The notes beneath the pieces were generated by a model. That model was not told the DNA's origin. It did not search any database and was given only the letters and a program-made list of their open reading frames with translations. This document shows, piece by piece, positions 6,201 to 60,077 of a stretch of DNA of 64,000 bases. Every line of letters begins with the position of its first letter. The first letter of the stretch is position 1. Position numbers and translations under genes: made by a program. This stretch comes from Cymodocea nodosa (lineage: Eukaryota > Streptophyta > Magnoliopsida > Alismatales > Cymodoceaceae), in assembly GCA_036874045.1 (NCBI GenBank), contig CM072337.1, positions 2,418,001 to 2,482,000 of the forward strand. The letters are read 5' to 3'.

Positions 6201-6209
6201 GGTCATTAA

Positions 6210-6578: not shown

Positions 6579-6579
6579 T

Positions 6580-11510: not shown

Positions 11511-11511
11511 T

Positions 11512-11640
11512 GTTTGGCAATTTAAACATAACTATCCGATACATATTCGGTCTGTTAAACATAACTGTCCGAATTTGTTCGGTATGTTAAACATAACTGT
11601 TTGAATATGTTCGATATGTTAAACATAACTGTCCAAATTT
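11512..11640. repeat. Tandem repeat of about 33 bp with palindromic units
   Basis: Four imperfect copies of a unit containing AAACATAACTGTCCGAA and TTCGGTATGTT. Each unit can fold on itself. It is present only in the E1 LTR; the other LTRs have a single CATAACTGTCCG block here. Confidence 0.7.
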
Positions 11641-11863
11641 ATTAGAAAATTCAGACACTAAAGAATTTCACACCCTGCAACTTACCGACAGTTCATAAAT
11701 GTACTAAATTAACATTAATTCCCCCAAATTAAGCAAATTCTTCAATTAAAATATATAACAGTGCAATTATAACATAATGGCTTAATTCTTATATAATAAG
11801 CTAAATATTATGCAATTAACCATCATTTAACCATTAATAATATGCACTTTTTCATTCTAAACA

Positions 11864-12110
11864 ACATGCAATATAACTCTCCGAAATAATAGAAAATTTG
11901 GATACTTAAGAATTTCAAAGTCTGTAACTTACTGACAATTTAGAAATGTACTTAATTAACACTAATTCCTTGAAATTATGCAGATTCCTTCATTAAAGCA
12001 TATAATAGTGTAATTATAACATAATGGCTTAATTCTCATATGATAAGCTAAATATTATGCAATTAACCATCATTTAACGGTTAATATTATGCACTTTTTC
12101 ATTTTAAACA
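11864..12110 (-). repeat. Terminal fragment (5' 247 bp) of a second LTR of the same family
   Basis: It repeats the last part of the preceding LTR: 11880-12110 parallels 11640-11863, each ending GCACTTTTTCATT(C/T)TAAACA. Its left end starts exactly where E1's LTR ends, so E1 appears to have inserted into this LTR. Its right end abuts E2 non-coding sequence with no polypurine tract. Confidence 0.7.
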
Positions 12111-12969
12111 CATTTCATTGCAATAATGTGTCTTGTAACGTGTGGTATGGTTCCTATATTTATGGATACATGCTCTACTTTTAAATTTAAATTTCAATAA
12201 TCGCTAAACACAAAGTCTCATTCGTGGAGAAAAGAATAACCATTTAGCTAATTCCACGAACTAACTTCATTGAGTTACAAATAACTCAACGGAGTGACCT
12301 TAGTTACTATTCCTAACTTAACAAACTAATCTCATTGAGTTACAGCTAACTCAATAGACTAGTTTCAGGCTTCTATTTGCTAACTCCATGGACTAACTTC
12401 GTTGAGTTACAAATAACTCAACAGAGTAACCTTATATTCTACTATTGACTTCATGGAGTTAAGGTTAACTCCACAAACTAATTACGTTGAGTTAACGTTT
12501 AGGCAAATTTTTCCTAAGAAACTTACTTCTCAATTTAACTTCTATATTTCTTTCCTACATATTATTTACATGAATATAGTTAAATACATAGAATTAATTC
12601 AGTATCTAGATTCAAAAACTCATTTAAATCCAAACATTATATGCATATTTAACTCAACATTAGTTACTATTTTGCAAAGATTAGAATTTTCTTCAATTTG
12701 TACACATATTAAGATATTTTCAAATCATCGTGCATTTAACTACATTATTTATAAAATTTTAAAAACTTGTTCTGCAAAGCTTTAAACAAATATATATATA
12801 TTAGAATTTCAATACACCTTTAAATCATTCATTCACCTTTATAAAATTTCAAAAGCATATTGATTCTCAAACAACATATATATATAAATTGTTTTGAACT
12901 ACAAATCTGTAATTACATCAATTACAAATTTCTACAAAAAATTACAAAACAAGTAGATGATTAATACAT
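12111..12969 (-). other. E2 non-coding tract after env-like ORF, with palindromes
   Basis: Homologous to 1-667 and to 35510-36304. The array of AGTTA/TAACT palindromes is at 12246-12500; the rest is AT-rich. The homology with N extends right up to the LTR edge at 12110, where a PPT would be expected but is missing. Confidence 0.7.
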
Positions 12970-22599: not shown

Positions 22600-22830
22600 T
22601 TGGGTAAACTATAGGATTCTCATACTCGGCTCTATTATATTAAGGATAATTCATTTGTTGTTCATGGGATCTAGTCATCTGCAAATGTCTCAGTTTCAAA
22701 CTATCAAAAATGTCGTAACCTTCAGAATTGCAGAATTCACATATGCTAACTACAGGTTTCAGAAATCTTTGAGCATAAGCATATGCCATATTCTCAATTA
22801 CAGAAGAAAACACACAACACTCTGGCTATT
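22600..22830 (-). pseudogene. E3 nucleocapsid segment with a destroyed zinc knuckle
   Basis: It follows the PBS directly, as in E1 and P. It reads SICEFCNSEGYDIFDS, so the knuckle His is Tyr and the last Cys is Ser; both changes abolish zinc binding. The Met of MAYAYAQRFLK is near 22790. No capsid domain precedes it. Confidence 0.75.
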
Positions 22831-28965: not shown

Positions 28966-29853
28966 TGTTTGGGTTTGTTAAATTCCGTTTGTAACTTAGT
29001 TAATTTATCTTTATGCTTATCAGTAATTCCTTTTTAGAAGTAACCAAACAATCTTTCACACAAATTAGATATTAATTCCAATTTGTATTTTAACTGCAAG
29101 TGCACAGTATATATTGTATTTGTATGCAAGTACAGGTTGATCCCATAGAGAATTGAGGTAGACTTGTGTATTGTTTCATTTTTAATAATGAAATTTATAT
29201 ATTCAGTAAGCACTTCGTTGAGTTATAGCTAACTCAACGGACTAACCTCGTGGAATTGAAGTAACTCAACAAAGCTATCTATCTAGTTTAATATTGCTAT
29301 TTACAGAGGAATTCGGCCAACCATTGGGTAGTTCCATAGATTGTAAATAACATCAATTAAGCTCTTTAATGCTAGTTAATATTAGATTTATCATTCAACA
29401 ACACTAACATTCAAATATTTCAAACAGTAACCATTAAAATCTTTAAGTATCAAGAACGATTTAATTCAATAAATTGTAAAACTATTTTCTATTTTCTAAA
29501 TTAAACAAACATGAAACATTCAAAACACTAACAATGATAACATTAATCACGATACAAAACAAACAATACAACACTCAAATACTAACTATAAACACAGATA
29601 AGTTGTTTTTGGTATTTTTGTTTTGATATGATCATGAAAATGGGTGAAAGGGGAAATGTAAAAGTAATCTTTATCAACAGTAAAAACTTCCGTCACTACA
29701 TGCGACATGATTACACCACTGAAAACTTAATCACTTACAATTCTACCTCCTCTCCCTATAGAATTGCGAGTCCAGAATTGCAAGATGATCTCCTCTTCAG
29801 CATACTGGCATCAACCCGAAACCAAGGCTAGAAACTTTACGTTCTCCTGAGAT

Positions 29854-30195
29854 ATGAGTCGGTGCTTGGTGAAAACAGCTTTCCTTCCTGCGACGCGATC
29901 ACTCCTCATAGTGGTTGTTAAGCACTGTGTTTGGCTCGAAATCGACCTAACATCAGAAAAGTATCCTCACATACCTCCGATGGTTGGTGATTATGGTGGT
30001 GATGGTTGTGGTTGTAGTGGTTGGTGTGGTACTTCAGGGAACTTCCAACGTTGCCTGCAGATAGCTTGGTTTGTCCTCCTCCACACACACTGGCCACCAC
30101 TCTTCTTCATCTTTTCTCCTTTTCTTTTATATTTCTTTAGTGGTAACTACTTTTGCTTGGATGATCGATTGGATTTCCTTCATTCATATCAATGA
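29854..30195 (+). other. Antisense open frame in LTR, recurrent in the family
   Basis: Antisense to the element. A frame starting MSRCLVKTAFLPATRSLL recurs in other LTRs: 10569-10847 (92 aa), 40905-41207 (100 aa) and 55293-55487 (64 aa). It is broken in the E3 and O LTRs. I do not recognise the product. Conservation may simply reflect a conserved, GC-richer LTR segment, so I do not call it a gene. Confidence 0.3.
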
Positions 30196-30308
30196 TGGTG
30201 ATTTCTTCTCCCTTCCACGAGTGAATTCCTGCATGATATGTGCAATCGTGGTTTTCCTTCGAATGTCCTGTTTCTATAACCGCTATAGTGGCATATTAGA
30301 AATTAAAT

Positions 30309-30600
30309 GGTCCATGGAGTTACAAATAACTCAACGGACTTACTTCGTTGATTTAACTATAAAACACGTGCAATAAAGAAATAAGCTGCTAACCTAACGC
30401 GTTACCTTAGTGTGTATTCATGTAACTCAACACGTACAGTTATGCTAACTTAACGAGTTAAACATGTGCATCTCACGTGACATAATAAAGCATTTAAATT
30501 CAATACGTGTGTAAATCTAACTTAACGAGTTTAGATATATAACTTAAGGTTTTTACTCGCTAACTCAACGAGTTGTTACTGTTCACCTAAATATTCTTTT
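30309..30600. repeat. U3 palindromes and G-boxes (N 3' LTR)
   Basis: GGAGTTACAAATAACTC and several AACGAGTTA/TAACTC stems, with CACGTG at about 30364 and 30475 and ACGTGT near 30503. Here the outer stem arm is often ACG/CGT rather than CGGAT. Confidence 0.6.
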
Positions 30601-30871
30601 AGCGTTTAAAACATAACTGTTCGGTACATGCAATATAACTCTCTGAAATAATAGAAAATTCGAATACTAAAGAATTAAAAACCAGCAACTTACCGACAGT
30701 TCAGAAATGTATTAAATTAACGCTAATTCCTTGAAATTATGCAGATTCTTTCATTAAAGCATATAATAGTGCAATTATAACATAATGGCTTAATTCTCAT
30801 ATGATAAGCTAAATATTATGCAATTAACCATCATTTAATCGTTAATATTATGCACTTTTTCATTCTAAACA

Positions 30872-30879
30872 CTTCCCCC
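30872..30879 (-). promoter_or_regulatory. N polypurine tract
   Basis: Minus strand GGGGGAAG directly before TGTTTAG of the 3' LTR; primes plus-strand DNA synthesis. The same text stands before the O LTR (42171-42177). Confidence 0.85.
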
Positions 30880-32937
30880 ATACTTAAATGTTGTTAGTCC
30901 CTTAGCAAACTAAGATCTAACTAATTGGTCTTTCTAAAGTGCTAGATTTAATTCTTCATTTCGATCTTCTTCAAAATAATAAATTAGATTACTATATAGA
31001 TATTCTGTATGCTTTAGTAATCTGTTTTAACTTTGTTTTTTTTTCCTCTTCAACCTGCAAATATATTTAGAATATATGTAAATTTCATACAAAATATATT
31101 AGCATCTCATAAGTGTTAATTATATTATCATTTTTTTTCTTTTCAGCATCTATCGTCCTAAATTTTCCAATATGATTTCCAGAATAAATTTCAAGTACAT
31201 TCGAATCAAAACACAATCCAATTCTATATGATTAAGACAAGTAGAATAAAGAATTGTATCTCAAATAAACAACTTCAAAAGTCTAATCTAGATTCATACT
31301 TCAGCAATTTTAGATAACAGAACATATACTCAATTCAAAAGATATCTGTATTTCACAAAACACTTGTATCTTTTCAAAACAGTATATGCATATTTGTACT
31401 TTTAAAAGTTAATTTGACAAGCTTGAATCATACAAGAGCTTTCTAGTGTACCCATGTATCGAGCTTTCAGTCAACAATCCTAGATCTGATTAGGATCTTA
31501 GGTTGCCAGATTTAAAGAGTCCTTTTTCAGGTCAACAATCCTTACATACCTATCTGCTCAAGTAAAAAAGGCACGTGATCAAATAAGTCAATAAACTCTC
31601 AAAATTTTTCTCTTTTTTCCTCTTTTTTTCTTTTTAACACAGTATATGAACGTATTTCATTAATACAGATGCAATAAAACACAAATCTCGTATATTCCTG
31701 CTCTTATTATTTACTGAAAATATGAATCCATATCAATAAGCTCATATTTTTTCTGTAATTTAATAAGATCTACACATAAATCATTCCACAAGTTTAATCA
31801 ATCAAATTAAATGTATCATTGATCATATGTATTTCCTTTAATGCAAAAATCAACATTTCAGCTCTTTCAGGATTTCAGATAATTTACTGAGTTTCAGTTA
31901 AACATTCTGATTTCTTTTTAAAATCATGAAATTGTTAAACTCATAAATTTCAGCAAAAACATAAGATACTATATCTAGATTTGTATGAGTAGTAAAATTG
32001 GTAGCATCTTATATAAGATTATAAATATAACATTTCAGCAGTTACAATTCTTTAAAAATTGTGTAGTTTCAATTATTGGATAGTTATAGCAACTTCATCA
32101 AAAAATTTCAACTTCCCTAGAACTTTTGTAGTACTATTTTAATTCTTCTAACTAACAAAATTACATGGCTGTTACTTTAATTACCTCCCCCCATACCTAC
32201 ATTTTGCATTGTCCTCAATGTAAAAGACTTTTCAATAAATATAGTAATTGCAGCAGGCATGAATATTATTTCATTGACTTAACACCTAACTCAACAAACT
32301 TAATTCGTTGAGTTAATGAATAACTCCACGAACTGAGTTTAAATGTAAATTTAGGATAAGTAATTAATTACATACCTTGTTCTTTTGTATCTCCTTCAAT
32401 ATCTTCTGATTTTTAAATCTAAAAAACTTTTCATTCACAATTCAAAGCAGAATATATAACAACAAAACATAACTTGTTAATCAGTGTCTTGTGTGGAACC
32501 CAGACTCCTATGCCTTTGGTGGCTCACAAGCAAGCCAATTGGTTTCCTAGAATAGATACCAACAAACTGGATTGATATTTTTATTTTTCTTTTTTTCTAA
32601 AAATAAGTGCAGACTACACACAACATTAAAAACATAGAATCACACTTTAAGAACATGACTGAAACGTAGTAACAAATCGAATAAACGTGTTAGTCCAAGC
32701 AAACTTTTTTGGCATAATTCTTCTTGCTTTCAATTCTATTTCAATGCAATCTATTTTCCTTTTTAATTTGTAAACTTGCAGTATGTTATCAATACTAAAT
32801 ATAAGTGTATTTCCATTAATGAAATGAAATGCAGAAAGAGATCCTCTTCTATTCCATTATAGTGTAATTGTTTTTATTTCTACAACTATCTCAATATATT
32901 CCTCTTCCCACTTCCTTTCATTTAGGTCTTTTATAAT
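30880..32937 (-). other. N 3' non-coding region between F-box gene and PPT
   Basis: About 2.06 kb, AT-rich, with no credible ORF. It holds a palindrome array (32275-32340) and an internal PPT-like block (32184-32197, minus GGTATGGGGGGAGG preceded by GAGGACAATGC). It is homologous to the 3' region of O throughout, so it is a family feature. Confidence 0.7.
32184..32197 (-). promoter_or_regulatory. Internal polypurine-tract-like signal (N)
   Basis: Same signal as at 27862-27874, about 1.3 kb upstream of the real PPT. It could act as a central PPT or be a relic of an earlier 3' end. Confidence 0.6.
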
Positions 32938-33849
32938 CTATATTTGAAATTTTTTCAATTCATCCCACCATCTTCTCAGACATAAAGTAGGATCATTATA
33001 TTCATTATACCACATTCCTAATTGAATTTTATCATATTCTACAGATGGTGGTTTAGCTATATCACTTGGTATAGGTAATATTTCTATAAAATCATCATAA
33101 TTGTCTATGCTTACTATGTATAAATCAAATCTAAATGCAACTGATATATCTGTGACTAGATATATATATCCATCAAGTATGACATGTATGTTGTTAATTA
33201 ATGTTTTTTGTCCTAGATATATCATATTATTTTCAGTCCAAGATCTATTCAAAAAATTATACATACTTAAGCATAAATCTTCATCCCAATTTCCAGTAGG
33301 TCTCCAATAATATAATTTTTCAGGAATGGTCAAATTTTTATCAGAAAATATTAAAGCTGACCCACAATTTTCAGTTGATACTTCATATCTATTAGGCCTT
33401 CCTATATTTCATTCTTCTCTTGTGAGAGGATTTCAAATTAAAATATCTGGTAACAGAATTGCATACCTTGGTTAGGTTCTGTATGTAATTAATCCTTCAT
33501 CCATCTCCAAAATATGATCTATTCATTCTAATGTATTGGGTGGAATTCTAGTTGTTTCTTCCATATTCAAATATTCATAGCTAATTGAACTACGATTAAA
33601 TGACTTCCATAAAAATCCATCTCTAATCTTAGTCATTTTTGCAGCTTGTAGTCCATGAAAATATTTTTTTCTGACACAGTCTTTAATATCCTTTGATACA
33701 CAACACAATCTGCACAGATCTTTAGCTGACAAGTTACTCAATACTTCCCTTAGTGCGTCTAGCGATAATTTCATTAATTCCATCTGTTGCGATTCTGTAT
33801 GACATAAACAAAAATTAATAGAGACAAAATTAACATAGCTACTACACAC
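32938..33849 (-). pseudogene. F-box protein gene carried by N
   Basis: F-box proteins are the substrate-recruiting subunits of SCF ubiquitin ligases and bind SKP1 through the F-box. The likely start is Met at 33789 (MELMKL), where an F-box begins at once: LSLDALREVLSNLSAKDLCR followed by CVSKDIKDCVRKKYF. An in-frame ATG lies further upstream at 33849. The rest (about 250 codons) resembles an F-box-associated region, with YYWRPTGNWDEDL and MWYNEYNDPTLCL. One frame runs the whole length with four in-frame stops (33523, 33472, 33433, 33409) and no frameshift or intron. A T-rich tract ending CATACAG just before the start could be a 3' splice site. It sits between capsid gag and the 3' LTR. The substrate cannot be guessed. 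Confidence 0.75.
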
Positions 33850-34000
33850 CCTCGTGGAGTTAGGTCATAACTCAACGGACTAAGTTCGTTGAGTTAAGTA
33901 ATAACTCTACGATACTATTAATTATAAGTAAACTTACATTTTTTTTTATATTTTTTTTTCTACTTACTATATTATACATAGTTACTTTAGTTATGATGTT
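33850..34000 (-). other. Gag/F-box intercistronic spacer with palindrome
   Basis: 33851-33915 holds CGTGGAGTTA/TAACTCAACGG/CGTTGAGTTA/TAACTCTACG arms. The block AACTCAACGGAC...AAGTTCGTTGAGTT at 33868-33894 is almost perfectly palindromic, with one G-T position. T-rich runs follow at 33940-33960. Confidence 0.75.
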
Positions 34001-35336
34001 TCATTCGGTTACCCTCCCAAAGGAGGTATCAATTTCATTAACAATTTTGTTAATAGGGTTAGGTACTGCTTGCATTGGCAATCCTCCAATAGGTCTAACT
34101 TCTATTGATTCTTTCTGTCTAGGGGGTATATTTCTATTTATATTTTGATTTTAAATTGCAGCATTTCCAAATACAAAATCTAGACGATTGTTTAATTGTT
34201 GAATTATCTTTTCTAACTTCTTTATTCTAGATCCTTGTTCAATTAATGCTTCATAATTATATTCTTGTTATTTATAGTTTCTCCTACCTGGAAATTATTG
34301 TTTCTCCAAGATAAATTTGGGTGATTTCTCTAATTAGGGTTATACGAATTTCCAAAGTTATCTTTTTGGTTTCTAGCATAAATAATATCTAAGTCATTAA
34401 CGTTTGCACTTTTTTCTACTACTTTCTGATTTAATGATAACTCTTCTATTTTCTTGGTTAATTCAGTTAATTTAACTTCAAGCATAGTGCTTGAATCCAT
34501 TTCATGCATTCCCCTTGGCAATATTCTTTTATTTGCAATAACTTCAGTTGAGTTCTCCCACTGTGCAATTCTTTTTGCAAAGTTTTCTAAGTATGCCCAT
34601 GCTTCTTCACTACAAATTTTAAAAATCCATTTTGATAAGTAGATTCTAATAAAGATTTCGTTGAAACATCTATGCCTTCATAAATTATACCTATCAATTG
34701 TGCTTTACTCATTGCATGATGTGGACATTGAGTCAGTAAATCTTTAAATCTTTCAAAATATTTCCAAAATGATTCTCCCTATTTTTGGCTACACATTAAT
34801 ATTTCCTTTTTCGTTTTAATTGTTTGATGTGTTGGATAATATTTTTCCAGAAAAATAGAGTAAAATTCAGTCCATGTAGAAATTGAATCAGGCAACAGAG
34901 TATATAATCATCTCTTAGCTGTGTTTTTTAAAACAAAAGGGATATATCTAAGTTTAATAGTATCTATACTCATGTTCAGTATTTTCATCATTTGACAAAC
35001 TTCGTTAAATTCTCTAAGGAAATAATAGGCATCCTCTCTTTCTAATCCATGAAAATGTGGCAATTGACTAATATAATTAGATTTCAGTTCAAACCTATCT
35101 CCCTCAAAGTTTGGCAATCGAATACATGAAGGTTCATCAACTAATTCAGGATACAGAATTTCCCCTAATGGTTTCTCTACTAGAGTAGTCATATCTTCGT
35201 TCTCTTTTAAAGAAAGGTTAGCTACACCCCTAAGGATTTCGTTAAAGTCTAGTTCAAAAAATTTTTCAATACATCTCTGTGTTGAATAATCCTATGTAGG
35301 TGTTCTTACTAATCGTTTAGTGCTAGGAGAACGAAT
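34001..35336 (-). pseudogene. N capsid-type gag, displaced downstream of pol and the env-like ORF
   Basis: Athila-type gag. The best stretch (34908-35192, 94 aa) contains CIRLPNFEGDRF, ISQLPHFHGLEREDAYY and the LREFNEVCQMM block. It continues through FWKYFERFKDLL, CPHHAMSKAQLIGIIYEG and EEAWAYLENFAK to SYNPN and RNHPNLSW. A C-terminal tail ends at TGA 34001. The frame is open from at least 35336 but has internal stops and two or three frameshifts. In ordinary Athila gag a CCHC knuckle lies before the YNPGWRNHPNF-type block; no CX2CX4HX4C is present here. The knuckle is instead at the start of the pol ORF of E1, E3 and P. This gag also has its own stop and no protease behind it, so gag is split in this family. 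Confidence 0.83.
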
Positions 35337-35364
35337 CTATAAGATAGTAGAAGATTAATTACAT

Positions 35365-35577
35365 ACCAGTCTGAAGCTTTATATTCAGTAAATAGTTGTT
35401 GACGGATGAAGTTGAATCAACTGCTTCTCCTTCTAGTTCCCCAACGAATTTTCTTTTCTCAAATGCTGGTAACTTGTAAACAACATTCTGTTCTATATTT
35501 ATAATGCACGTCCATAAAGCAACTGAATCTCGTTGCAAGAACGTGACTTGTAATGTGCAGTATGGTTCCTACTTTTA
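35365..35577 (-). other. Short open stretch upstream of the displaced gag
   Basis: About 65 codons read open, for example NVVYKLPAFEKRKFVGELEG, ending in a stop just before the gag frame. I do not recognise it. It may be the gag N-terminus (matrix-like) separated by a frameshift, or a chance frame. A TATAAATATAG sequence (minus strand, near 35484-35496) lies inside it. The text GTATGT...CTTATAG between it and gag has splice-site-like ends but is only about 30 bases, too short for a plant intron. Confidence 0.3.
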
Positions 35578-36304
35578 TGATACGAGTGCCACTTCTAATT
35601 TCAAATTTCAGTAACCGCTAAACCCACGAAGTTTCGTTCGTGGCTAAAAGAATAACTGTTTAGCTTAATTGACGAACTAACCTCGTTGAGTTACAGATAA
35701 CTCAACGGAATAGCTTCGGTTACTGTTGCTAACTCCACGGACTAACTTCGTTGAGTTACAAATAACTCAACGGAGTGACCTTATATTATATTATTGACCT
35801 CGTGGAGTTAAGGTTAACTCAATAAACTTACTTCGTTGAGTTAACACTTAGCAGATTTTCTAAACTTACTCCTCATATTAACTTCTATATATAAATTTCT
35901 CTCCTACATTCTTTTCAACTTAAATAAAGTTAAATACATGACATTAATGCAGTGTTCTAATTAAAACTCATTTAAATCTAAATATTATATAAATATTTAA
36001 CTTGTAGTTCATTTCATGTTATGCAGAATTTAAATTTTTCTTTGCACCATGCAGATATTTTCAGGCATTAATTAGTTAACGTGCCTTTAATCTTGTCATT
36101 TAGCAAATTTGCATATCTTTTAAACAATCTTGCATTTTGTTCAAACCATTATATAATATTCAATATAGTTCATCCATTTCATCATTCTCAAACACGAATG
36201 AAAAATACATCTAACAAACACACATTCATTAATATGAATAGTATACATTACAATAACTCAAATATTTTTCATACAAATGTACACAAGTAGACAAACTATA
36301 CAAT
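35578..36304 (-). other. N non-coding tract between env-like ORF and gag, with palindromes
   Basis: The palindrome array at 35661-35855 is the same as in E1 and E2 after the env-like ORF. The remainder is AT-rich. There is no PPT and no LTR remnant here, so the ORF and gag belong to one element as far as the sequence shows. Confidence 0.72.
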
Positions 36305-38554
36305 TTAATCTCTTCTCCTAAGTTCATCTACTTCCTTCTGGAGTCTTTCTACTTGTTGCTCTAATAGGTTAATTCTTTCTACAACTCCTGTAACTCCTCT
36401 AGAAGGTTCAGCAATTTCTGCAGTAGCATAATTTCTATACTCTTTCACTAAAATGGTTCTTGATCTTATCCTTTTATATGCCCATTTCGTGAAATCAATA
36501 CTATCCACCATCAGTAGTGGAATCAAATCTCCATAAAATAATTTCTTCTTTGCTACTTTCAGCTTGGAGATAAATACTTTGTACCAATTAACTTTAATTT
36601 TGTTTACAACTGCATAAGTAGCCCACTTGACAAATTGACTAAGTTCAATGTCGTGGCCTTGTCTTTGATAAACAGTTTTTACGAGTATGATTGAAACAAT
36701 GTGTGTATTTCCATTTAAATACTTTAGTCTATTCAGTAATGGCACACCAAGGTCGATGGCTATGCACTGTTTAATTTCCTATTCAGCCCATTCCACTATA
36801 GTTGTTTCTTCCAAAATTTCAATTCCTTCATTTCTCAGTCTGAAAATATTGTGCAGAAGATCTGGCGTTATCTGTACATCAACTTTCTCCACATTGGAAA
36901 TTAATCCTCTTTCTCCTTCTCTCAAATTTGCATAAAAGCAGGGCATTAAATTCTCATATACTGCATACCCTCTTTGTTGAGAAATAAACTGTAGTAGACC
37001 TTGGAACTCAAATAAATCTTTGATTTCTTGCATTCCGTCTCAATTTACTGGTCTACTGTAAATAATATCATAACTCCTAATCTCTTGGTATTTATTATAA
37101 GCTTCCTAACTCCAAAAGTATACTTCATTTAAAACTATTGCCTCAGCCGGGTCAGGAATATGAATTTGTTGCTCTAGAGGGGTTTGTTCTTGAACTTCCT
37201 CTTCCAAATGCTAAACTTGGACTTGTTGAAAATGCTCTGCGGATTCCTGAATATTTGCTTCTGCTTCTATCTGTGGTGGTGAGCCGGCAAAACTCTCCAC
37301 TCTGTCTTGAATACTTTCCATAAATTGCTAAAGAGTTTCTTACTCTTTAGTGGAATCTATAGAGTCATTTCTTTCCATATATACTTGTTCAGCTTCTTGT
37401 TCATTTTCTGTTCTTTCTTCTTCCTCCTGACTACCAATCTGTATTGTAACTGTTCTTTCTGATTCTGTGGCAGATTGGGATGGAGTTACGGGCAAATCAG
37501 CTTCTACCATAATTTCTATTTCTTCTTCTTGTACAAGCTATAGGCTAGTTTCAACCTATTTTTCTTCTTCTCTTTGTTCTTGCTGCTGCTCCTCCTCCTC
37601 CTCCTCAGAATCAGATAGCAGGTTTACAAAATTTGGCTTTGCAGGCTCTACTGACATTTGTATTTCAGATTTAATCTCATCGTGATATTCAGACACTATC
37701 TCTTTTCCTTTCCTTTTTCTAATTAATTGTGTCTGGTCTTCCTCTTCCTCGTCTGAAATTAAATCCACAAAAATAGGCTTTGTAGACCTTTGAGCCATAG
37801 GTATTGGCTCTTCCTATTTAACTTTTTCTATAATTACTAGTCTCAAAGGACCAACTTCATCTCCTTTTGCAGTAGGTTTGGCAGTAGCTTCACGATGTTA
37901 TTCCACTTTGATTCTATATTGGGCTTTCAGCTTTTCTACAGCCCTCTTTTTGCACCGTGCATCAAACACCAGATGTGCTATAGCTACTACCAGTTCTTTT
38001 GGTTCTCCTTAGTCTCTTCCTATTTGAACTAGTTATTGAAATTCTTTTTTTTCTTCTTCAGTAGTAGGCCCCAAAATTACTACTCGTTCCATCGGCCTTG
38101 GTGGTGGAACTGAAGGTCCTGGCTGCTATTCCTCAGGAACAGTTCTTTCAGCAATCAATTCCTCCTGTTCTTGAGTTACCTCTTCTTCTCTTTCTTTCCT
38201 TTCTTACTCCCAGATCGCCCATTTAGCTCATCCACATATTCGTCTTTTGAACCAAAGCTAGGACTTACGTTGGATTAATTCTAGGGCAACTTCGTTGTTT
38301 GGCCTTATTTTTCTTTCATTGCTTACAGCAATTTCCGTAGCAACCTTGATTCTTGTTTCTATTATTTAAGGTATTTGTATACCCAAATCTACTAAAACTC
38401 TTTTAAAGTTGAAAAGTTTAGATTCTACCTTCTGTAGTTCTTTTTCTCTTATTGTATTTTTGATTTTCTGCCTCGTCTGCCATTCCTCTAATTCTTTAAG
38501 AAATTCTAAAGTGTTAACCGCATCTTCCTAGAACTCAAGTGTCATCTTCCTCAT
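36305..38554 (-). pseudogene. N env-position ORF
   Basis: About 750 codons from ATG at 38554 (or 38545, matching the E1 start) to TAA at 36305, with several stops. The N-terminal coiled-coil-like part, the acidic middle (37400-37800, with Glu runs) and the C-terminal conserved block (FYANLREGERG near 36930, LLHNIFRLRNEG near 36850, KKLFYGDLIPLLMVD near 36540, WAYKRIRSRTILVKEYRNY near 36475) are all present. It is uninterrupted at the point where E1 carries the solo LTR, so it supplies the empty target site. It lies between integrase and capsid gag. Confidence 0.75.
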
Positions 38555-39252
38555 CGTGGAGTTACACAATGGCACGGAGTCGCTCCAATCTCTACTATTC
38601 TAAGTTCTAAATGATTCTGCGGATAATGCCCCCAAACACCCTAAGTTTAATATAAATAAGCCCTAAGTTTAGGCGAGTAATTGGATCATTTCCCACACCA
38701 ACTCTCGCTCTCTCATCCATGGAATTACGGTTAACTCCACGGACTAAGTCCGTGGACTTAACTACAATACTCCGTCGAGTTATAGTTAACTCAACCGGGT
38801 AAGTTCATTAACTTATCCTAGACTCAACGGAGTAAGTTCGTTGAGTTAAGCGTAACTCAACGAACTTCCTGTAAAGTTATATCTAATAAAAAAAATACTT
38901 AAGATAATAATTTTTTCTTCGATCAAGATCGAAGAGCTTCGATTTAACCGCTCTTACTTTTTCCATATTTTAAAAATTCTTCGGTCAAATCGTTATATAC
39001 CTCGGTTGAACTGAAATTAAATATTTTCTTTCTTTCTTCAATTTTTACCAGTTATGCTTCGGTAAAACCGACATTTTTACTAAATAATATATAGATTTTT
39101 TTATGTTTTTATGTTTCGGTCAGACCAATGGATCCTATCAGTTGAACTGCAACGATTTCTTTTGTGCTTCGGTAAAATCGATAACTCCTTTCGGTTTAAC
39201 CGTAACTATGTTTAATTTTATTTTATTTTTAATAAAATAAAATGATTTCTTA
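38555..39252 (-). other. N integrase-ORF spacer with two palindrome types
   Basis: 38718-38870 carries AGTTA/TAACT stems, including a 31-base near-perfect palindrome at 38731-38761 of the TGG/CCA variant (TTAACTCCACGGAC mirrored by GTCCGTGGACTTAA). 38915-39220 carries many TTCGGT/ACCGA stems. No ORF. Confidence 0.75.
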
Positions 39253-40277
39253 CTAAGTAAAGCTCGAGTAATCCTCTACTCTTACTTCTATAATTCCAAA
39301 AGAACTTTGTAGTATCTTCAAAATAGGTCTAAGTCTTTGTCCATTTACTTTAAATATGTTCTAATTTTTAGGGTTTTCAATTTCAATAGCTCCATAAGGA
39401 TAAATATTTCGAACTATGTAAGGCCATGCCCATCTAGATCTTAATTTTCCTAGATGGTTATGGAGTCTAGTCATATAAAGATATACTTCTTGTTCTATTT
39501 CAAAGGTTTTTGGAATAATTTTCTTATCATGCGAGAACTTCATTTTCTCTTTTTCCCTTACAGTTTTCGAATAAGCTTCATTCCTAAATTCTTCTAATTC
39601 AATCAATTGTAATTTCCTCTTTTCAGCAGCTTGATTCAAATTAGTGTTCAAAGTTTTTAATGCCCAATAAGCTTTATGTTCAATTTCAACTGGTAAATGA
39701 CAACTTTTTCCATATACTAGCCTAAAAGGTGGCATACCTAAGCTTGTCTTATAAGCAGTTCTATAAGCCCAAAGTGCATCTATCAATTTATTAGCCCAAT
39801 CTGTTCTAGTAGGATTTACTACTTTTTTAAGATTAACTTAATTTGTTTGTTTGCACTTTCTACTTGTCCATTGATTTACGGATGATATGATGTTGCAATT
39901 TTGTGATTTACTCCATATTTCTTCATTAAGGCTTTAAAACTTCTATTACAGAAATGAGTTCCTTTATCACTGATAATAGCTTTAGGTATTCCAAATCTAG
40001 CAATTATATTGGTTCTTATAAAATATATTACCACTTTGTTGTCATTAGTTCTTGTATGAATAGCTTCTATCCATTTAGATACATAATCCACCCCTAACAA
40101 TATGTAATTAAATTGATTAGACATAGGAAATGGACCTATAAAATCTATTCCCCACACATCAAATATTTCAACCTCAACAATAGGATTAAGAGGCATCATA
40201 TTCCTCTTTGATATTCTTCCTATTTGTTGACATCTTAAACAACTTAAGTAGTATTTATGAGCATCTTTGAATAGTAA
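39253..40277 (-). pseudogene. N integrase
   Basis: Nearly complete integrase domain. LSCLRCQQIG-type zinc-finger end near 40235, [15 protein letters not shown] near 40145, ISDKGTHFCN near 39970, then a frameshift near 39830-39870 close to the third catalytic residue. [19 protein letters not shown] lies near 39690, and the WAWPYIV motif near 39430 (Gly of WAGPYIV changed). The stop is at 39253. Sequence upstream of 40277 (rest of zinc finger, RNase H, RT, PR, NC, PBS) is deleted and replaced by LTR sequence. Confidence 0.85.
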
Positions 40278-40293
40278 TTAAATTCCTCTTTGA
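40278..40293. other. Deletion junction with templated filler in N
   Basis: Integrase homology ends at about 40277 and LTR homology starts at about 40294. The filler includes ATTCCTCTTTGA (40282-40293), identical to 40199-40210 about 80 bases away in integrase. This suggests repair by microhomology-mediated end joining with a copied patch. Confidence 0.6.
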
Positions 40294-41921
40294 CTAATCT
40301 TGTGGAATTGAAGTAACTCAACAAAGCTATCTATCCAGTGTAATACTACTATTTACAGAGGAATTTTGCCAACTATTGGGCGGTTCCACAGATTGTAAAT
40401 AACATCAATTAAACTCTTTAATGCTAGTTAATATTAGATTTATCATTCAACAACACTAACATTCAGATATTTAAAATAGTAACCATTAAAATCTTTAAGT
40501 ATCAGGAACGATTTAATTCAGTAAACTGTAAAACTATTTTTTATTTTCTAAATTAAACAAACATGAAACATTCAAAACACTAACAATGATAACATTAATC
40601 ACGATACAAAACAAACAATACAACACTCAAATACTAGCTATAAACACAGATAAGTTGTTTTTGGTATTTTTGTTTTGATATGATCATGAAATGGGCGAAA
40701 GGGGAAATGTAAAAGTAATCTCTATCGACAGTAAAAACTTCCGTCACTACATGCGACGCGATTACACCACTGAAAACTTAATCACTTACAATTCTGCCTG
40801 CTCTCCCTATAGAATTGCGAGTCCAGAATTGCAAGATGATCTCCTCTTCATCATACTAGCATCAACCCGAAACCAAGGCTAAAAGCTTTACATTCCCCTA
40901 AGATATGAGTTGGTGTTTGGTGAAAATGGCTTCCCTTCCCGCGACACGATCACTCCTCATAGTGGTTGTCAGGCACTGTGTTTGGCTCGGAATCGACCTG
41001 ACATCAGGAAAGTATCCTCACAGACCTTCGATGGTTGGTGATTATGGTGGTGATGGTTGTGGTTGTGGTGGTTGGTGTGGTACTTCAGGGAACTTCCGAC
41101 ACTACCTGCAGATAACTCAATTTGTCCTCCTCCACACACACTGGCCACCACACTTCTTTGTATTTTCTTCTTTTCTTTTATATTTCTTTAGTGGTAACTG
41201 CTTCTAATTAGATGATCGGTTGGATTTCCTTTATTCATATCAACGATGGTGATTTCTTCTCCCTTCCACAAGTGAATTCCTATGTGATACGTGCAATCGT
41301 GGTTTTCCTTCGAATGTCCTATTTCTATAACTACTATAGTGGCATATTAGAAATTAAATGGTCCATGGAGTTACAAATAACTCAACAAACTTACTTCGTT
41401 GATTTAACTATAAAACACGTGCAATAAAGAAATAAGCTGCTAACCTAACATGTTACCTTAGTGTGTATTCATATAACTCAACGCGTACAATTATGCTAAC
41501 TTAACGAGTTAAACATGTGCATCTCACGTGACATAATAAAGCATTTAAATTCAACATGTGCATAATCTAACTTAACGAGTTCAGATATATAACTTAAGGT
41601 TTTTACTTGCTAACTCAACAAGTTGTTATTGTTCACCTAAATATTCTTTTAGCGTTTAAAACATAACTGTCCGGTACATGCAATATAACTCTCCGAAATA
41701 ACAGAAAATTTGGATATTAAAGAATTAAAAACCAACAACTTACCAATAGTTCAGAAATGTATTAAATTAACGCTAATTCCTTGAAATTATGTAGATTCTT
41801 TCATTAAAGCATATAACAGTGCAATTATAACATAATGGCTTAATTCTCATATGATAAGCTAAATATTATGCAATTAACCATCATTTAACCGTTAATATTA
41901 TGCACTTTTTCATTCTAAACA
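40294..41921 (-). repeat. N 5' LTR, lacking its U5 end
   Basis: It matches the 3' LTR from the outer terminus (41921, TGTTTAGAATG on the minus strand) to within about 330 bases of the inner end. U3 palindromes are at 41365-41410 and 41450-41640. The antisense frame 40905-41207 corresponds to 29854-30195. Confidence 0.85.
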
Positions 41922-42170
41922 ATAACATAACTACCACCTATGTGATGCTAGTATATTTTGTATGTAATTTACATATGTTTTAAATATATTTGTAGGTTGG
42001 AGAGGAGAAAATAATGTTAAATTAGATTATTGAATTAATACAGAATATCTTTATATTAATCTAATCTTAGTATTCTGAAGATACAAAATGAAGAATTAGT
42101 TCTAGCACTTTAGAAAGACTAACTAGTTAGATCTTAGTAATTTGCTAAGGGACTAGCAAAAGTTAAGTAT
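41922..42170 (+). other. O 3' non-coding region, continuation after N
   Basis: It starts with the second ATAAC of the target duplication (41922-41926). It is homologous to 30880-31115 of N in opposite orientation, including CTAAGGGACTAGC before the PPT. Confidence 0.8.
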
Positions 42171-42177
42171 GGGGAAG
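42171..42177 (+). promoter_or_regulatory. O polypurine tract
   Basis: GGGGAAG immediately before TGTTTAGAATG of the O LTR. Confidence 0.83.
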
Positions 42178-44241
42178 TGTTTAGAATGAAAAGTGCATAA
42201 TATTAACAGTTAAATAACGGTTAATTGCATAATATTTAGCTTATGATATGACAATTAAGCCATTATGTTATAATTGCACTATTATATGCTTTAATGAAAA
42301 AATTTGCATAAATTTAGGGAATTAATGTTAATTAAGTATATTTCTGCACTATCAGTGAGTTACAGGTTTTGTAATTCTTAAGTATCTGAATTGTTTGTTA
42401 TTTTCAAGAGTTACATTTTATGTACCGGACAGTTATGTTTTAAATGCTTAAAGAATACTTTATTATTTCCCGAAGGACACGTGTTGTAACCTTAATACAT
42501 GACTTAAGTGGATTTCTGGTAAGTTAGATGATAACCATCTAAAATACGTCTAAGCATCGGATAGTTAGGTTTGCAAGTATCTAAAATATTCTTTTTCTTA
42601 TATAAATTATTGAGGACATGTGTTGCGATCTGAAAACTTGACTTAAGTTATCTTTCGAAAGGTTAGGTGCTAACTATCTAAAATGCATGTAAGTTTCAGA
42701 TACTTATAGTTGTAAGTATCCGAATTATCTTAACTCATTAAGTTAGCATGACTATACGTGTTGAGTTACTTAAATATACACTAAGGTAACGCGTTGAGTT
42801 AGTGTTATAAGCTTATAAGTTATTTCTTTATTACATGTGTTTTATAGTTAAGTCAACGAAGTAAGTTCGTTGAGTTACACTAACTCCACAAACCATTTAT
42901 TTTCTAATATGCCACTATAGCAGTTACAGAAATAGGAAATTCAAAGGAAAACAATGATTGCACATATCACACAGAAATTAACTCGTGGAATGAAGAAGAA
43001 ATCACCATCGTTGATATGAATGAAGGAAATCCAACTAATCATTAAGGTAGAAGTAGTTACTACTGAAAGAAATATAAAAGAAGAGGAGAAAGATGAAGTG
43101 GGGGAGAAGTGGAGGACCATACTAACTACAGGAAGCGTCGGAAATTCCTTGAAGCTCCACAATACCACCAAAATCACCATCCATCGGAGGTTTGTGACGA
43201 TACTTTCTGGATGTCAGGTCGATTCTGAGCCAAACACGGTGACTAATAACTACTATGAGGAGTGATCGCAGGAAGGGAAGTCATTTTCACCAAACATCGA
43301 TTCATATCTCAGGAGATCGTAAAGCTTCTAGCCTTAGTTTTATGTTGATGCTAATATACTGAAGAAGAGATCAACTTACAAGTCTTGGTTCATAATTCTA
43401 TATGGAGAGGAGGCAAGATTGTAAGTGATTAAGTTTTCAATGGTGTAATCGCATCACATGTAGTGATAGAAGTTTTTACTATCGATAGAGATTTTTATAT
43501 TTCACCTTTCGCTCATCTTTAGGAACATATTAAAACAAAAATACCAAAAACAATTAATTATCTGTGTTTACATTTAGTATTAAAGTGTTGTATTATTTGT
43601 TTTGTATCGAGATTAATGTTATCATTGTTAGTATTGTGAATGTTTTATGTTTGTTTGATTTACAAAATAGAAAATAGTTTTATAGTTTACTGAAATTGAT
43701 TCGTATAGAATACTCAAAATCTTAATAGTTACTGTTTGAAATATCTGAATGTTAGTGTTGCTTAATGACAAATCTTATATTAACTAGCATTAAAAAGTTT
43801 AATTGGTGTTATTTACATTCTGTGGAACCGCCCAATGGATGGCTGAATTCCTTTGTAAATAGCAATATTTAACTAGAAAGGTAGGCTCGTAGAGTTAACT
43901 TAAGTCCATGAGGTTAGTCCATTGAGTTAACCATAACTCCACGAACTAAGTCTGTTGAGTTAACAGTAACTCAACGAAGTACTTAATTGAACACATACAA
44001 ACTCTAGCAAAATAAAATAAAATAAAATAAAATAGTACACAATTCTTACTCAATCTCTTTGAGATCGACTTGTACTTGCACACAAATACAATATACATTG
44101 TACACTTGCAGTTAAAAATACAAATTAGACTTAATATCTAATTTGTGTGAAAAGTTGTTTATTTACTTCTAAAAGAATTTCTTAATATAAGCATAAACAC
44201 AAATCAAACAAGTTTTCTGATTTAACTTTTCACACCAAACA
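42178..44241 (+). repeat. O 3' LTR, about 2.06 kb
   Basis: It starts TGTTTAGAATG after the PPT and ends ...CCAAACA at 44241. U3 has GGATAGTTA-type stems and (A/T)ACGTG boxes (near 42478 and 42757), and AGTTA/TAACT stems at 42690-42900. U5 stems lie at 43885-43985, followed by a (AAAAT)n run near 44010-44032. The antisense frame found in other LTRs is broken here. The end is less certain than for LTRs next to a PBS. Confidence 0.75.
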
Positions 44242-54447: not shown

Positions 54448-54734
54448 TATTTAGAATGAAAAAGTACATAATATTAATAGTTAAATGATGGTTAATTGCA
54501 TAATATTTAGCTTATCATGTAAGAATTAAGCCATTATATTATAATTGCACTGTTAGATGATTTAACAAAAGAATCTACATAATTCCAGAGAATTAATATT
54601 AATTTAGTACATTTTTGAATTGTCGGTAAATTATAGGCTGTGAAATTTTTAAGTATCCGAATTTTCTATTATTTCAGAGAGTTATAATGCATGTACCGGA
54701 CAGTTATGTTTTAAATGCTAAAAGAATATTTAGG

Positions 54735-55060
54735 TGAACAGTAACAACTCGTTGAGTTACAGCTTTAAAGGTATAAAAAGATCACGTGAGAACTCGTTGA
54801 GTTAGCGAGTAAAAACCTTAAGTTATATGTCTGAACTCGTTAAGTTAGATTTGCACACGTGTTGAATTTAAATGCTTTATTATATCACGTGAGATGCACA
54901 TGTTTAACTCGTTAAGTTAGCATAATTGTATGCGTTGAGTTACATGAATACACACTAAGGTAACACGTTATGTTAGCAGCTTATTTCTTTATTGTACGTG
55001 TTTTATAGTTAAATCAATGAAGTAAGTCTGTTGAGTTATCTGTAACTCCACGGACCATTT
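54735..55060. repeat. U3 palindromes (P LTR)
   Basis: CTCGTTGAGTTA, AACTCGTTAAGTTA, GCGTTGAGTTA and TGTTGAGTTATCTGTAACTC arms recur, with CACGTG near 54783 and 54895. Confidence 0.65.
54772..54788 (+). promoter_or_regulatory. Possible LTR promoter: TATA box next to a G-box (P)
   Basis: TATAAAAA at 54772-54779 and CACGTG at 54783-54788. The distance to any transcription start is unknown; the match may be chance in AT-rich DNA. Confidence 0.3.
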
Positions 55061-56447
55061 ATTTTCTAATATGCCACTGTAATAGTTACAGAAACAGGAC
55101 ATTCGAAGGAAAACCACAATTGCACGTATCACATAGGAAATTGCTTATGGAAAGAAGAAGAAATCACCATCGTTGATATGAACAAAGGAAATCCAACTGA
55201 TCATTGAAGTAGAAGCAGTTACTACTAAGAAATATAAAGGAGGAGAAAAGAATATACGGGGGGTGGCCAGTGTGTGTGCAGAGGAGGAGGAACTAACTAC
55301 AGGCAGCGACGAAAGTTCCCTGAATTTCCACATTACCACCACCACCATAATCACCAACCATCGGAGGTCTGCAAGGATACTTTCCTGATGTCGGGTCGAT
55401 TCTGAGCCAAACACGGTGCCTGACAACCACTGTGAGGAGTGATCGCGTCGCGGGAAGGGAAACCATTTTCACCAAGCACCGACTCATATCTCAGGAGATC
55501 GTAAAGCTTCTAGCCTTGGTTTCGGGTTAATGCCAGTATGTTGAAGAGGAGATCAACTTGTAATTCTGGACTCGCGATTCTATAGGAAGAGGAGACAGAA
55601 TTGTAAGTGGTTAAATTTTCAGTGGTGTAATCGCGTCACATGTAGTGACGGAAGCTTTTACTGTCAATAGAGATTACTTTTACATTTCACCTTTTGCCCA
55701 TTTTCATGATCATATAAAAACAAAAATACCAAAAATAACTTATCTGTGTTTATAGTTAGTATTGGAGTGTTGTATTGTTTGTTTTGTATTGTGATTATTG
55801 TTATCATTGTCAGTGTTTAGAATGTTTCATGTTTGTTTAATTTAGGAAATAGAAAATAGTTTTACAGTTTATTGAAATTGAATTGTTCCTGATACTTAAA
55901 GATTTTAATGGTTACTGTTTGAAATATCTGAATGTTAGTGTTGCCAAATGATAAATTTAATATTGACTAGCATTAAAAATCTTAATTGATGTTATTTACA
56001 ATCTGTCGAACTACTCAATGGTTGACTGAATTCCTTTGTAAATAGTAGTATTAATCTGGATAGATAACTTCGTTGAGTTACTTCAATTTCACGAAGTTAG
56101 TTCGTTGAGTTAGGTATAACTCAACGAAGTGATTACTGAAGATATAAATTTCATTATTAAAAAGCAGAACAGTACACAATTCTTCCTCAATTCTCTGTGG
56201 GATCGACCTGTACTTGTACACAAATACAATATACACTGTGCACTTGCAGTTAAAATACAAATTGGAATTAATATCTAATTTGTGTGAAAGATGGTTTGTT
56301 GACTTCTAAAAAGGAATTAATGATAAGCATAAACATAAATTAACTAAGTTACAAACAGAAGTTAACAAGGCAATCAAGTTTTCTAGCGCTGTTGCTAGGG
56401 AACTAAATAAGTTCTCTAGTGTTGCCTAAAAATCCAACCAAGTTTTC

Positions 56448-56522: not shown

Positions 56523-56906
56523 GTGTGTTTTCTTCTAATTGAGAATATGGCATATGCTTATGCTCAAAGATTTCTGAAACTTGTAATTAGTATATGTGAA
56601 TTCTGTAATTCTAAAGGTCACGACATTTCTGATTGTTTGAAACTGAGACGTCTGCAAATGGTTAGATCACATGGACAACAAATGAATTATCTTCAATATA
56701 ATAGAGCCGAGAATGAGAATCCTATGGTTTACCCAACTAATGGTTAGTATAAAATGTGTAATATGTTGAGAGACACAGAGTTTGGGATAGGTATGACAAA
56801 CTGGAGTGTAGTATAGAGTAAAACATGGACAAATTAGAACACTTTATGTGTCAGCAACAAGAAGTCAACCAATTAAACTATAAGGAAGCATATTCAGAAC
56901 CTAAAA
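56523..56906 (+). pseudogene. P nucleocapsid segment with intact zinc knuckle
   Basis: MAYAYAQRFLK starts at 56547, about 80 bases after the PBS. The knuckle CEFCNSKGHDISDC keeps all four ligands. The stretch 56523-56747 is open for 74 aa, then broken by a stop at 56745-56747. No capsid precedes it. Downstream text (VCQQQEVNQLNYKEAYSEP-like, 56840-56900) leads to the linker. Confidence 0.8.
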
Positions 56907-58061
56907 TTGATATCATTTATGAAATTGAAAAAAATCATAATGAAAATTGATCAAAAATTGAATGCAATGAGATTAAATAATCTAGAAAGAAAACTAAAAT
57001 CATTGGACAAATATACAATGAAATTACAAGTTATGCAACAATACAACACAAATGAAAATTATAATGTTATAGATTTGCATAATTTGCAAGATATGCAAAC
57101 AAAAGAGAATACCAATGCAATAGAATTTAAAGAAATTACTTTAAAACTAAAAACAATTGAAGATCATAATCACAAAAATAATATACAAGAACATCATGAG
57201 AGTAACGAAAATCTAGAAGATGTATGTATAACACTAAGATTTGGAATTGATATACCACCAAGAATTCAAAATGAAAATAATATGAAGGTGGATAAGAGTA
57301 AAAATCAAAATGATAATGAGAATGTAATATCCAAAAATACAGAAATCAATGAAGAAAAGTCTGAATCAAAAAATGAGACTAAGAATGATCAAACAAATCA
57401 AATGAAAGAAAAAGAATCTTTTAAATCACAATAATTAGCACCCTATCCTGAAAGATTACAACAAACATTTCCTGAAAAATAAGAAAAAATTAAAGAAATT
57501 TTTGAAAAAGTACAAGTTAACATTCCTTTGTTAGACTTATTGCAAACAATGCCACCTTATGCTAAATTTCTTAAGGATTGGTGTACTAAGAAAATAGAGC
57601 AAAAAGTTTTAAGGAAAATCTTTTTAGCTAAGCAAAGTAGTTCCTTATTTCTGCCACAAATTCCTAAAAAGTTATCTGATCTTGGAATCCCAGTTATATC
57701 ATGCACCATAAGAAATACCATTCTAGAAAGAACCTTAATAGACTTAGGTGTTGGTATAAATATTATATCAAGTGATATATTTGCATCCTTAGGATTAGAA
57801 GGCTTAACTCCTACTAGTACGGTTATTCAATTAGTTGATAAAAGTATAAGAAACCCTAGAGGAAAAATAGAGGATGTCTTAATTAAAATTAAAAACTTTA
57901 TATATCCTATTGGTATTGTAATTTTAAATTCCCAACAAATTAAGCATAAAAATAATGATTCATCTTTAATTTTGGGAAGACCATTTTTAGCAACATTAAG
58001 GGCGATTATAAATTATACAAGTGGAGTAATGAAGTTATCATATAGCAATGAGGATACTTAA
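56907..58061 (+). pseudogene. P gag-pol linker and protease
   Basis: Linker 56907-57434 (175 aa, Asn/Glu/Lys-rich) ends at a stop equivalent to a Ser codon in E1. The protease stretch 57528-58061 (177 aa) has FLKDWCTKKIEQK, the active site LIDLGVGINI (Ala of DLGA changed to Val) and ILGRPF. Ends at a Gln-to-stop change near 58059. Confidence 0.84.
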
Positions 58062-58142
58062 TTAAACATTTTCAAATCAGAAAAGTTCGAGGAGTTAGAA
58101 ACGTCCTTACATACCATAGACTTTTTAGAGGATGAAGGAGAT

Positions 58143-59450
58143 ATGATAGATGATGTGATTAAAGAAGAATTAAATAGGCAACTCAATTTTGAAACTTTAA
58201 AGGAAAGTGAAAGCATAAATATAAAAGGAGATCAAGAAGAAATTAATTTAGAAAATGAGGATGTTCAATTAGGAGCTCTTGCTTCTAATGGGCAACATTT
58301 AGAATTAAAACATTTACCTCCTAAATTAACCTATATATTTCTGGAAGAAAAACGAACATGTCCAATCATTATTGCTTTAGATTTAAAAGAGGATCAAATA
58401 GCTAAATTAAATGATGTAGTAAAAACATATAAAGAAGCAATAGGATGGATTATGACTGATATAAAAGGGTTAAGTCCAACTTTATGCTATCACCATATAT
58501 ATTTAGAGGAGAATGCTAAACCTGTTAGAATTCCTAAGAGGAGATTAAATCCAAACCTTAAAGAAGTAGTCAGGAAGGAAATAGTGAAATGGTTAGATAA
58601 TGACATAATTTATCCGATTTCTAATAGCTTATGGGTTAGTCCAATCCATGTAGTTCCTAAGAAATCAAGATTAACAGTAATTAGGAATGAAAGTCAGGAC
58701 TTGATACCTACTAGAATTCAGTCAGGCTAGAGAGTGTGTATAGATTATAGAAAGCTAAATGCTGTAACTAGGAAAGATCATTTTCCCTTACCTTTTATAG
58801 ATCAAATGCTAGAGAAATTAGCAGGGCAAGAATATTTTTGTTTCCTAGATGAGTATTCAGGATATAACTAAGTTCCAATAGCATTAGAGGATCAAGAGAA
58901 AACAACTTTCACCTGTCCTAATGGAACTTATGCTTTTAAGAGAATGCCATTTGGATTATGCAATGCACTAGTCACCTTTCAAAGGTGTATGTAGGGCATA
59001 TTCACTAGAATGACTGAAGATTTTTTAGAAATATTTATGAATGATTTTATTGTTTATGGAACTTCATATGAAGTGTGTTTAAACAATTTAGACCAAGTAT
59101 TAAAATGTTGTGTGGAAAAAAATCTAGTTCTAAATTGGGAAAAATGTCACTTCATGGTTAATCAAGGAATCGTCTTGGGTCATGTTGTTTCAAAGAAGGG
59201 GTTGGAAGTAGATAAAGCTAAAATAGAAGTAATTTCTAATCTACTAGAACCTAAATCAGTAAAAGATATTAGATCATTTCTAGGACATGCTGGATTTTAT
59301 AGAAGATTTATTAAAGATTTTAGCAAAATAGCTAGACCTTTAACTAATTTATTAAAAGATGTCCCATTCAACTTTGATAAAAATTGCAAAGAATCATTTT
59401 TCAAGCTTAAAACTAGCTTAATTTCAACTCCTATAATTCAAGCACCTGAT
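58143..59450 (+). pseudogene. P reverse transcriptase
   Basis: 58143-58730 holds the linker and fingers with WVSPIHVVPKKSRL; it stops where the Trp of SGWRVCIDY is TAG. The palm follows with FCFLDEYSGYN, a stop at Gln, and FTCPNGTYAFKRMPFGLCNA. The catalytic box at 59030-59045 reads FMND, the first Asp of FMDD lost. 59010-59600 also covers the thumb, with SFLGHAGFYRRFIKDFSK. Confidence 0.85.
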
Positions 59451-59900: not shown

Positions 59901-60077
59901 GCAGACATAGTTAATTACTTAGTTATTGGTTTAATACCTAAGGATTGGAATAGACAGGATAAGAAATTGTTTTTCTCAAGAGTAAAATATTACTATTGGA
60001 AAGACTCATACTTATTTAAGAAATGTCCTAACCTGGTTTTAAGGAGGTGTGTTCCAGAAACTGAATATTAGAACATA

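Follow-up and report, generated by a model that had tools for sequence, protein, structure and literature searches.

The window analyzed here is a 64,000-nucleotide stretch of the Cymodocea nodosa genome (C5:2418001-2482000; genome 374.6 Mb, 28 contigs). Compared with itself, it contains several related long terminal repeat (LTR) retrotransposons that are nested, truncated, and present in both orientations. We consider it likely that these copies form one family in an Athila-type group of Ty3/gypsy elements in which the capsid gene, gag, lies behind pol, that gag was moved there in an ancestor, and that Gag is made from a message of its own. With less assurance, we lean toward a broader reading, in which Gag and Pol have become uncoupled across an entire group of plant LTR retrotransposons, with pol in front bearing an RNA-binding knuckle and gag at the back with a separate message. 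One branch would have passed RNA binding wholly to Pol, and its capsid and nucleocapsid would have ceased to be parts of one polyprotein.

The protein pieces of the window were placed by tblastn in the window plus 30 kb on each side. Two copies, P and E1, run across the window edges, and both have the order LTR–zinc knuckle–protease (PR)–reverse transcriptase (RT)–RNase H (RH)–integrase (INT)–extra open reading frame (ORF)–capsid gag–F-box–LTR. The first-pass annotation of this DNA had proposed looking to the right of P and to the left of E1 for gag and the F-box gene, and both were found there before the 3' LTR (in stretches L012 and L011, respectively). To the right of P, a spacer is followed by capsid gag (matches at 1063-2023 of L012), the F-box gene (2528-3700), the 3' non-coding segment, and the 3' LTR, and the two LTRs of P are identical at 1761 of 1876 compared positions. 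The F-box gene of E1 lies at 7059-8225 of L011. A third copy with the same order spans L009 to L011, with part of its integrase gone.

At the 5' end of E1, E3, and P, the LTR is followed by a first ORF of the MAYAYAQRFLK..CEFCNSEGHDISDC type. Its knuckle (CX2CX4HX4C, with S and D changes in E3) lies downstream of the ATG that opens the pol ORF and reads into the protease. E1 and E3 have a primer-binding site (PBS), TGGCGCCGTTGC, ahead of this ORF, and the P version is degenerate; the motif recurs in family A, described below. No capsid-piece match was found by tblastn between LTR and knuckle in any of the three. We also read 2.6-kb stretches for ten gag matches (every sixth row, 31 to 85, of the genome listing), and five of them gave further 5' ends (L047-L050 and L054). 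Together with E1, E3, P, L011, and L014, this makes ten readable 5' ends, and in all ten the knuckle follows the LTR after 133–187 bp without a capsid. The first-pass annotation's description of a knuckle-first pol ORF in E1, E3, and P is therefore borne out, and its own counter-case, a capsid between LTR and knuckle, occurred in 0/10.

The 3' half is equally regular across the genome. We searched with a 127-amino-acid (aa) capsid piece and scored the 150 best places among 5006 first-look candidates. These matched at 86-100% identity, the 100% match being element N of the window (Table 1). A query from the E1 protease region, for which the 95 best of 8365 candidates were scored (itself included), matched the others at 90-92%. 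Both candidate totals are unconfirmed matches and not a copy number. When the best 30 gag loci were read with 1.5 kb on each side, the extra ORF lay upstream of gag in 26 (missing in L019, L021, L029, and L036) and the F-box gene downstream in 26 (missing in L020, L022, L029, and L036), with both present in 24. The full order in P and E1 and these 24/30 loci uphold the earlier proposal that pol first and capsid in the 3' half is a family property and not random deletion. L029 has an LTR piece ahead of the gag spacer, without a knuckle, and L032 has a protease behind a cut F-box; we take both to be deletion or recombination products.

Element N starts its LTR with TGTTTAG at 41921, ends it with CCCAAACA at 28966, and is flanked by GTTAT on both sides, so its described LTR ends and target duplication are confirmed. 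Its two LTRs are identical at 1524 of 1630 compared positions. Integrase, extra ORF, and a knuckle-less gag with its own stop follow in that order on the minus strand, also as first described. Between the integrase, extra ORF, gag, and F-box of N there is no LTR match of any length except short hairpin matches, and the PPT-like stretch (PPT, polypurine tract) lies after the F-box, so that neither an LTR nor a PPT separates the extra ORF from gag. No LTR or target duplication marks gag and F-box as a separate insertion in N, P, or E1. Because its 5' LTR stops at 40292 and the integrase begins at 40277, N has lost the PBS, knuckle, protease, and RT. N alone cannot show the full gene order; P and E1, past the window edge, do. 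It is inserted in the orientation opposite to its sibling host element. All four copies carry stop codons in some gene.

Table 1. Coordinates of the retrotransposon features (window positions unless a contig or stretch is named).
Feature	Position	Strand	Remarks
P 5' LTR	54450..56368	+	3' LTR at L012 5474-7362
P zinc knuckle	56547..56654	+	178 bp past LTR
P protease, RT, RNase H, integrase	56955..61070	+	
P extra ORF	62376..64000	+	runs to window edge; gag, F-box, 3' LTR continue in L012
E1 5' LTR	9675..12111	-	
E1 zinc knuckle	9419..9526	-	start of pol ORF
E1 protease, RT, RNase H, integrase	4887..9118	-	
E1 extra ORF	671..3991	-	gag and F-box continue in L011 (9672-7059)
E3 zinc knuckle	22682..22789	-	170 bp past LTR 24907-22960
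Element N	28966..41921	-	deletion derivative; both outer LTR ends, GTTAT target duplication
N 5' LTR	40292..41921	-	3' end missing; adjoins integrase
N integrase pieces	39364..40277	-	rve (Pfam)
N extra ('env-like') ORF	36308..38059	-	broken
N spacer before gag	35292..36305	-	hairpins, TATA-like GCATTATAAATATAG, GTATGT site
N capsid gag	34004..35291	-	no CCHC; Retrotrans_gag PF03732; ends ..FGRVTE*; broken by stops
N F-box gene	32650..33864	-	broken; F-box PF00646
N 3' non-coding segment	31129..32600	-	hairpins; PPT-like stretch 32226-32183
N segment ahead of 3' LTR	30872..31128	-	PPT AAGTATGGGGGAAG at its end
N 3' LTR	28966..30871	-	
Sibling hosting N, F-box end and 3' non-coding segment	26912..28954	+	
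Same sibling continued, pre-LTR segment and LTR	41922..44214	+	
Spacer hairpins	38719-38861, 35685-35823, 33854-33910, 32273-32329		
Family A	C6		LTR, PBS TGGCGCCGTTGCCGGGGA, two CCHC, pol, gag, PPT, LTR
Family B	C11		LTRs 99.74% over 1542 bp and 100% over 265 bp
Family C	C16		LTRs 94.9% over 1182 bp; knuckle, pol, gag with knuckle

Two side observations concern the neighborhood of E1. The start of its LTR contains a 240-bp segment twice in tandem (11622-12110). Between E1 and E3 lies a fragment, E2 (12112-16384), of the same kind and more diverged, at about 71% DNA identity.

The same arrangement is found in other families of this genome. We searched for canonical copies with a Citrus gag (P0006, 531 aa) and a Malus gag-plus-protease-linker protein (P0008, 577 aa). 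All 81 best places for P0006 end by residue 474, all 76 best places for P0008 end at residues 392-419, and none runs on toward a protease. Among the P0006 places we read six stretches and then twelve further down the list. In 6/6 of the former, integrase immediately precedes gag on the same strand, at a distance of 0.2-0.6 kb and with no LTR match in the interval. In 11 of the latter it lies about 0.25-0.45 kb upstream; in the twelfth (L077) nothing was recognized. Gag has its own CCHC, by a plain pattern, in five of the six stretches; it is not seen in L055 but is in the 98.4%-identical L059, so that gag carries one in families A, C, and D and in a near-identical member of B. The pol ORF of A, B, and C has a separate CCHC near its start, and no capsid match was found ahead of the protease in the copies of these three families. 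From family D (L058), the INT-gag part alone was read.

Family A gives the clearest boundaries. Its LTRs are 96.9% identical over 1629 bp, and it sits inside another element's gag between two copies of ATGCT (+ strand). When the flanks are joined without the element, they give one unbroken 131-aa match (88.5%) to the gag of E1. At least one gag-last element, that of family A, has transposed as a unit. The LTRs of family B are about 99.8% identical overall, and the frame holding its knuckle and pol runs open for 1153 aa within the part read. About 66 bp are probably missing from the start of its 5' LTR, and we found no target duplication around this copy. N, P, and family A each have a PPT ahead of the 3' LTR. 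In LTRs bounded by TG..CA, 5-bp target duplication, PBS, PPT, and the Pol order PR-RT-RH-INT, these elements look like ordinary Ty3/gypsy elements, except that gag does not precede pol in the window family or in the sister families.

The first-pass annotation had taken the basic event to be a split of gag into nucleocapsid and capsid. This does not agree with the sister families, which keep a gag with its own CCHC behind integrase in addition to the CCHC of pol. In a Tasmannia gag-protease protein (P0003), residues 9-250 match the 3' gag, while the part from residue 197 or 309 to 487 matches the 5' ORF. Against Citrus gag P0006, the gags of the window and of E1 share the same 30-column gap at the knuckle, and the gag start M..W.R...RL.R is common to P0001, P0002, the sister families, and the window-family copy in L012. 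Given these three features, gag looks like a whole gene severed just before the protease part. It appears to have moved behind pol as a whole, and the window family would later have lost the gag knuckle, so that the two halves only look complementary.

Ratios of nonsynonymous to synonymous substitution (dN/dS), taken as pairwise values without a significance test, are below 1 for both halves. They are 0.08-0.21 for the knuckle, over 35-36 codons, and 0.07-0.59 for gag, with 0.12 at a dS of 0.63 over 257 codons between E1 and the L009 copy. The extra ORF gave 0.09-0.73; values from its central and C-terminal parts stay below 0.3, apart from that of one 29-codon piece. In midpoint-rooted trees that took in 16 canonical polyproteins and no named Athila reference, the gag-last families form one group with both RT (support 82/80) and capsid (84/51). 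Both trees join the window family to family A (86/69 for RT and 100/99 for capsid). This is as expected if gag moved once and was then inherited with pol.

Outside this genome we found 16 gag relatives in other plants, 26-51% identical. Of 865 database homologs of the family B pol start, we considered the best 120: 91 are canonical, with the capsid before the protease, and 29 have no capsid, many of which look partial. None of these 120 has a capsid behind the protease. Gag gave no match at E <= 1 to the sequences of solved structures, and no relative was found among viral contigs.

Several observations weigh against this account. Five of the ten additionally sampled copies (L045, L046, and L051-L053) have no LTR-knuckle start at the expected place. 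In family C, 850 bp lie between the end of the LTR match and the knuckle, and we recognized no PBS. Not all dN/dS values are low: gag reaches 0.59 when the first capsid piece of N is compared with P and E1, two short gag pieces (34 and 52 codons) give 0.77 and 0.88, and the F-box gene gives 0.27-0.79. Support for the gag-last group is moderate in both trees, which makes a single origin compatible rather than shown. Finally, the expression route proposed below was read by eye from sequence signals, and family C and the window family do not have an AG as clear as that of the other families before the gag ATG.

We propose that a break between the end of gag and the protease segment divided a canonical Athila gag-pol. 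Gag would have been relocated to the 3' side a single time, in the common ancestor of these families, and pol would have kept or gained an N-terminal knuckle. The genomic RNA would then yield Pol directly. Gag would be translated from a separate message for the 3' gene, and the most likely candidate is a subgenomic RNA produced by splicing to an acceptor immediately upstream of the gag ATG. This ATG stands 3-4 bases after a T-rich stretch and an AG in families A, B, and D, and the spacers of families A and C contain mini-exon-like pieces bounded by AG and GT, as judged by eye. Because no Gag-Pol fusion would deliver Pol to the particle, Pol is probably recruited through its own knuckle, bound to the genomic RNA.

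As a source of the gag message, an internal promoter within the spacer is less likely than splicing of the LTR transcript, although for the window family it may apply. There, the TATA-like GCATTATAAATATAG is conserved in a 32-copy alignment about 180 bp ahead of the gag ATG, a GTATGT site also precedes gag, and the hairpins of the LTRs recur in the spacers. What counts against such a promoter is that families A, B, and D have an AG just ahead of this ATG; the TATA-like word was sought in the window family only. The hairpin arms, GTTGAGTTA/TAACTCAAC, occur 53 times in the window (106 on both strands) versus 2-14 times on both strands in five Markov-shuffled windows, and 0-4 times per sister-family stretch (both strands). 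Besides LTRs (e.g., 9917-10003 and 29217-29270), they occupy the spacers on either side of the extra ORF, gag, and F-box; an exception lies inside the gag of P (L012 1910). In the window and near flanks, counting both strands, 1490 pair cells are unchanged, 45 are changed on both sides and still paired, 53 are G-T, and 230 are broken. The hairpin may mark or regulate each gene's message.

It is improbable that the 5' parts are gag-less, non-autonomous pol parasites using foreign Gag, in the manner of BARE-2, which is reportedly a gag-less plant element, and that the 3' gag is a passenger captured from another lineage. Gag-less elements do occur in plants, with 9/63 Retand clusters lacking a GAG domain according to an excerpt of PMC11963269. 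Here, however, one family after another carries gag within the element, at a dN/dS below 1, and the gag and RT trees agree on the window family and family A. No canonical gag-protease fusion is among the best 76 and 81 gag places, a result that leaves room for rarer or more distant canonical elements. That nesting, tandem LTR recombination, or misassembly makes gag only seem to lie behind pol is highly implausible even in a region full of nested and truncated copies, where E2/E3 and N are recombinants or deletion derivatives: the boundaries of P, E1, and family A rule out nesting or permutation, family A having LTRs and a 5-bp duplication inside another gene whose empty site reads through, the integrase-gag interval of 0.2-0.6 kb is free of LTR matches, and the same gene order recurs on many chromosomes.

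Among the families read, the extra ORF and the F-box gene were seen only in the window family. The earlier 'env-like' label for the extra ORF is not supported: the Pfam matches to PF20167 ('putative plant transposon protein') were weak and fell below threshold (E 0.00018 and 0.07, in sister copies), and Athila ORF-1 (PF03078) did not come up for pieces of this ORF. For the F-box gene, there was no homolog at E <= 0.001 among 309 protein-database candidates, and structure prediction was uninformative (mean predicted local distance difference test, pLDDT, of 33).

Three further features were seen along the way. Many of the genome's highest-scoring RT matches sit no more than about 60 kb from a contig start (for example, C7:10449, C8:17692, C10:21223-25559, C21:5965, and C22:9221), as telomere-associated elements might. 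RT places with the same frame length cluster at C2:8.76-9.73 Mb and at C6:15.83-15.98 Mb (three, at a spacing of about 73 kb), which suggests large tandem duplications. The window also holds a 193-bp direct repeat, 99.5% identical and nearly tandem, at 52599-52975.

Among the closest known systems is the Athila lineage (Ty3/gypsy, Metaviridae, OTA superclade of REXdb), which these elements resemble in PR-RT-RH-INT order, PF03732 gag, and plant polyprotein relatives of both gag and pol. We assign the name tentatively, from motifs, among them a PBS motif that we take to be typical of Athila. The elements differ from that lineage in having gag after pol as a separate ORF and in a pol that opens with its own zinc knuckle. 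An excerpt of PMC6317226 reports 8453 elements classed as Ty3/gypsy with the order GAG-PROT-RT-RH-INT. Pipelines that expect this order may file copies such as ours as gag-less or broken. Retand elements, in the portion of PMC11963269 available, have ORFs between pol and the 3' LTR that are antisense to gag and pol; the long extra-gene region is shared, whereas here gag itself lies there, in sense. BARE-2 and gag-less Retand elements likewise have no capsid at the 5' end; our elements differ from them in that the element itself carries, farther 3', a gag whose dN/dS is below 1.

To our knowledge, gag-pol order, with the Gag:Pol ratio set by frameshift, readthrough, or proteolysis, is treated as near-universal in retroviruses and LTR retrotransposons, and we found no report of gag behind pol in the open-access literature. 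A group with gag behind pol, including a copy with LTRs about 99.8% identical, suggests that this order is dispensable. It offers a natural test of Pol packaging without a Gag-Pol fusion, of making the main structural protein from a 3' gene, and of capsid assembly with the knuckle on another protein. Foamy viruses (Spumaretrovirinae) make Pol apart from Gag, from separate messages. By analogy, the Pol proposed here would likewise be made without a Gag-Pol fusion; unlike our elements, foamy viruses keep the gag-pol order, and it is Pol, not Gag, that comes from a spliced RNA.

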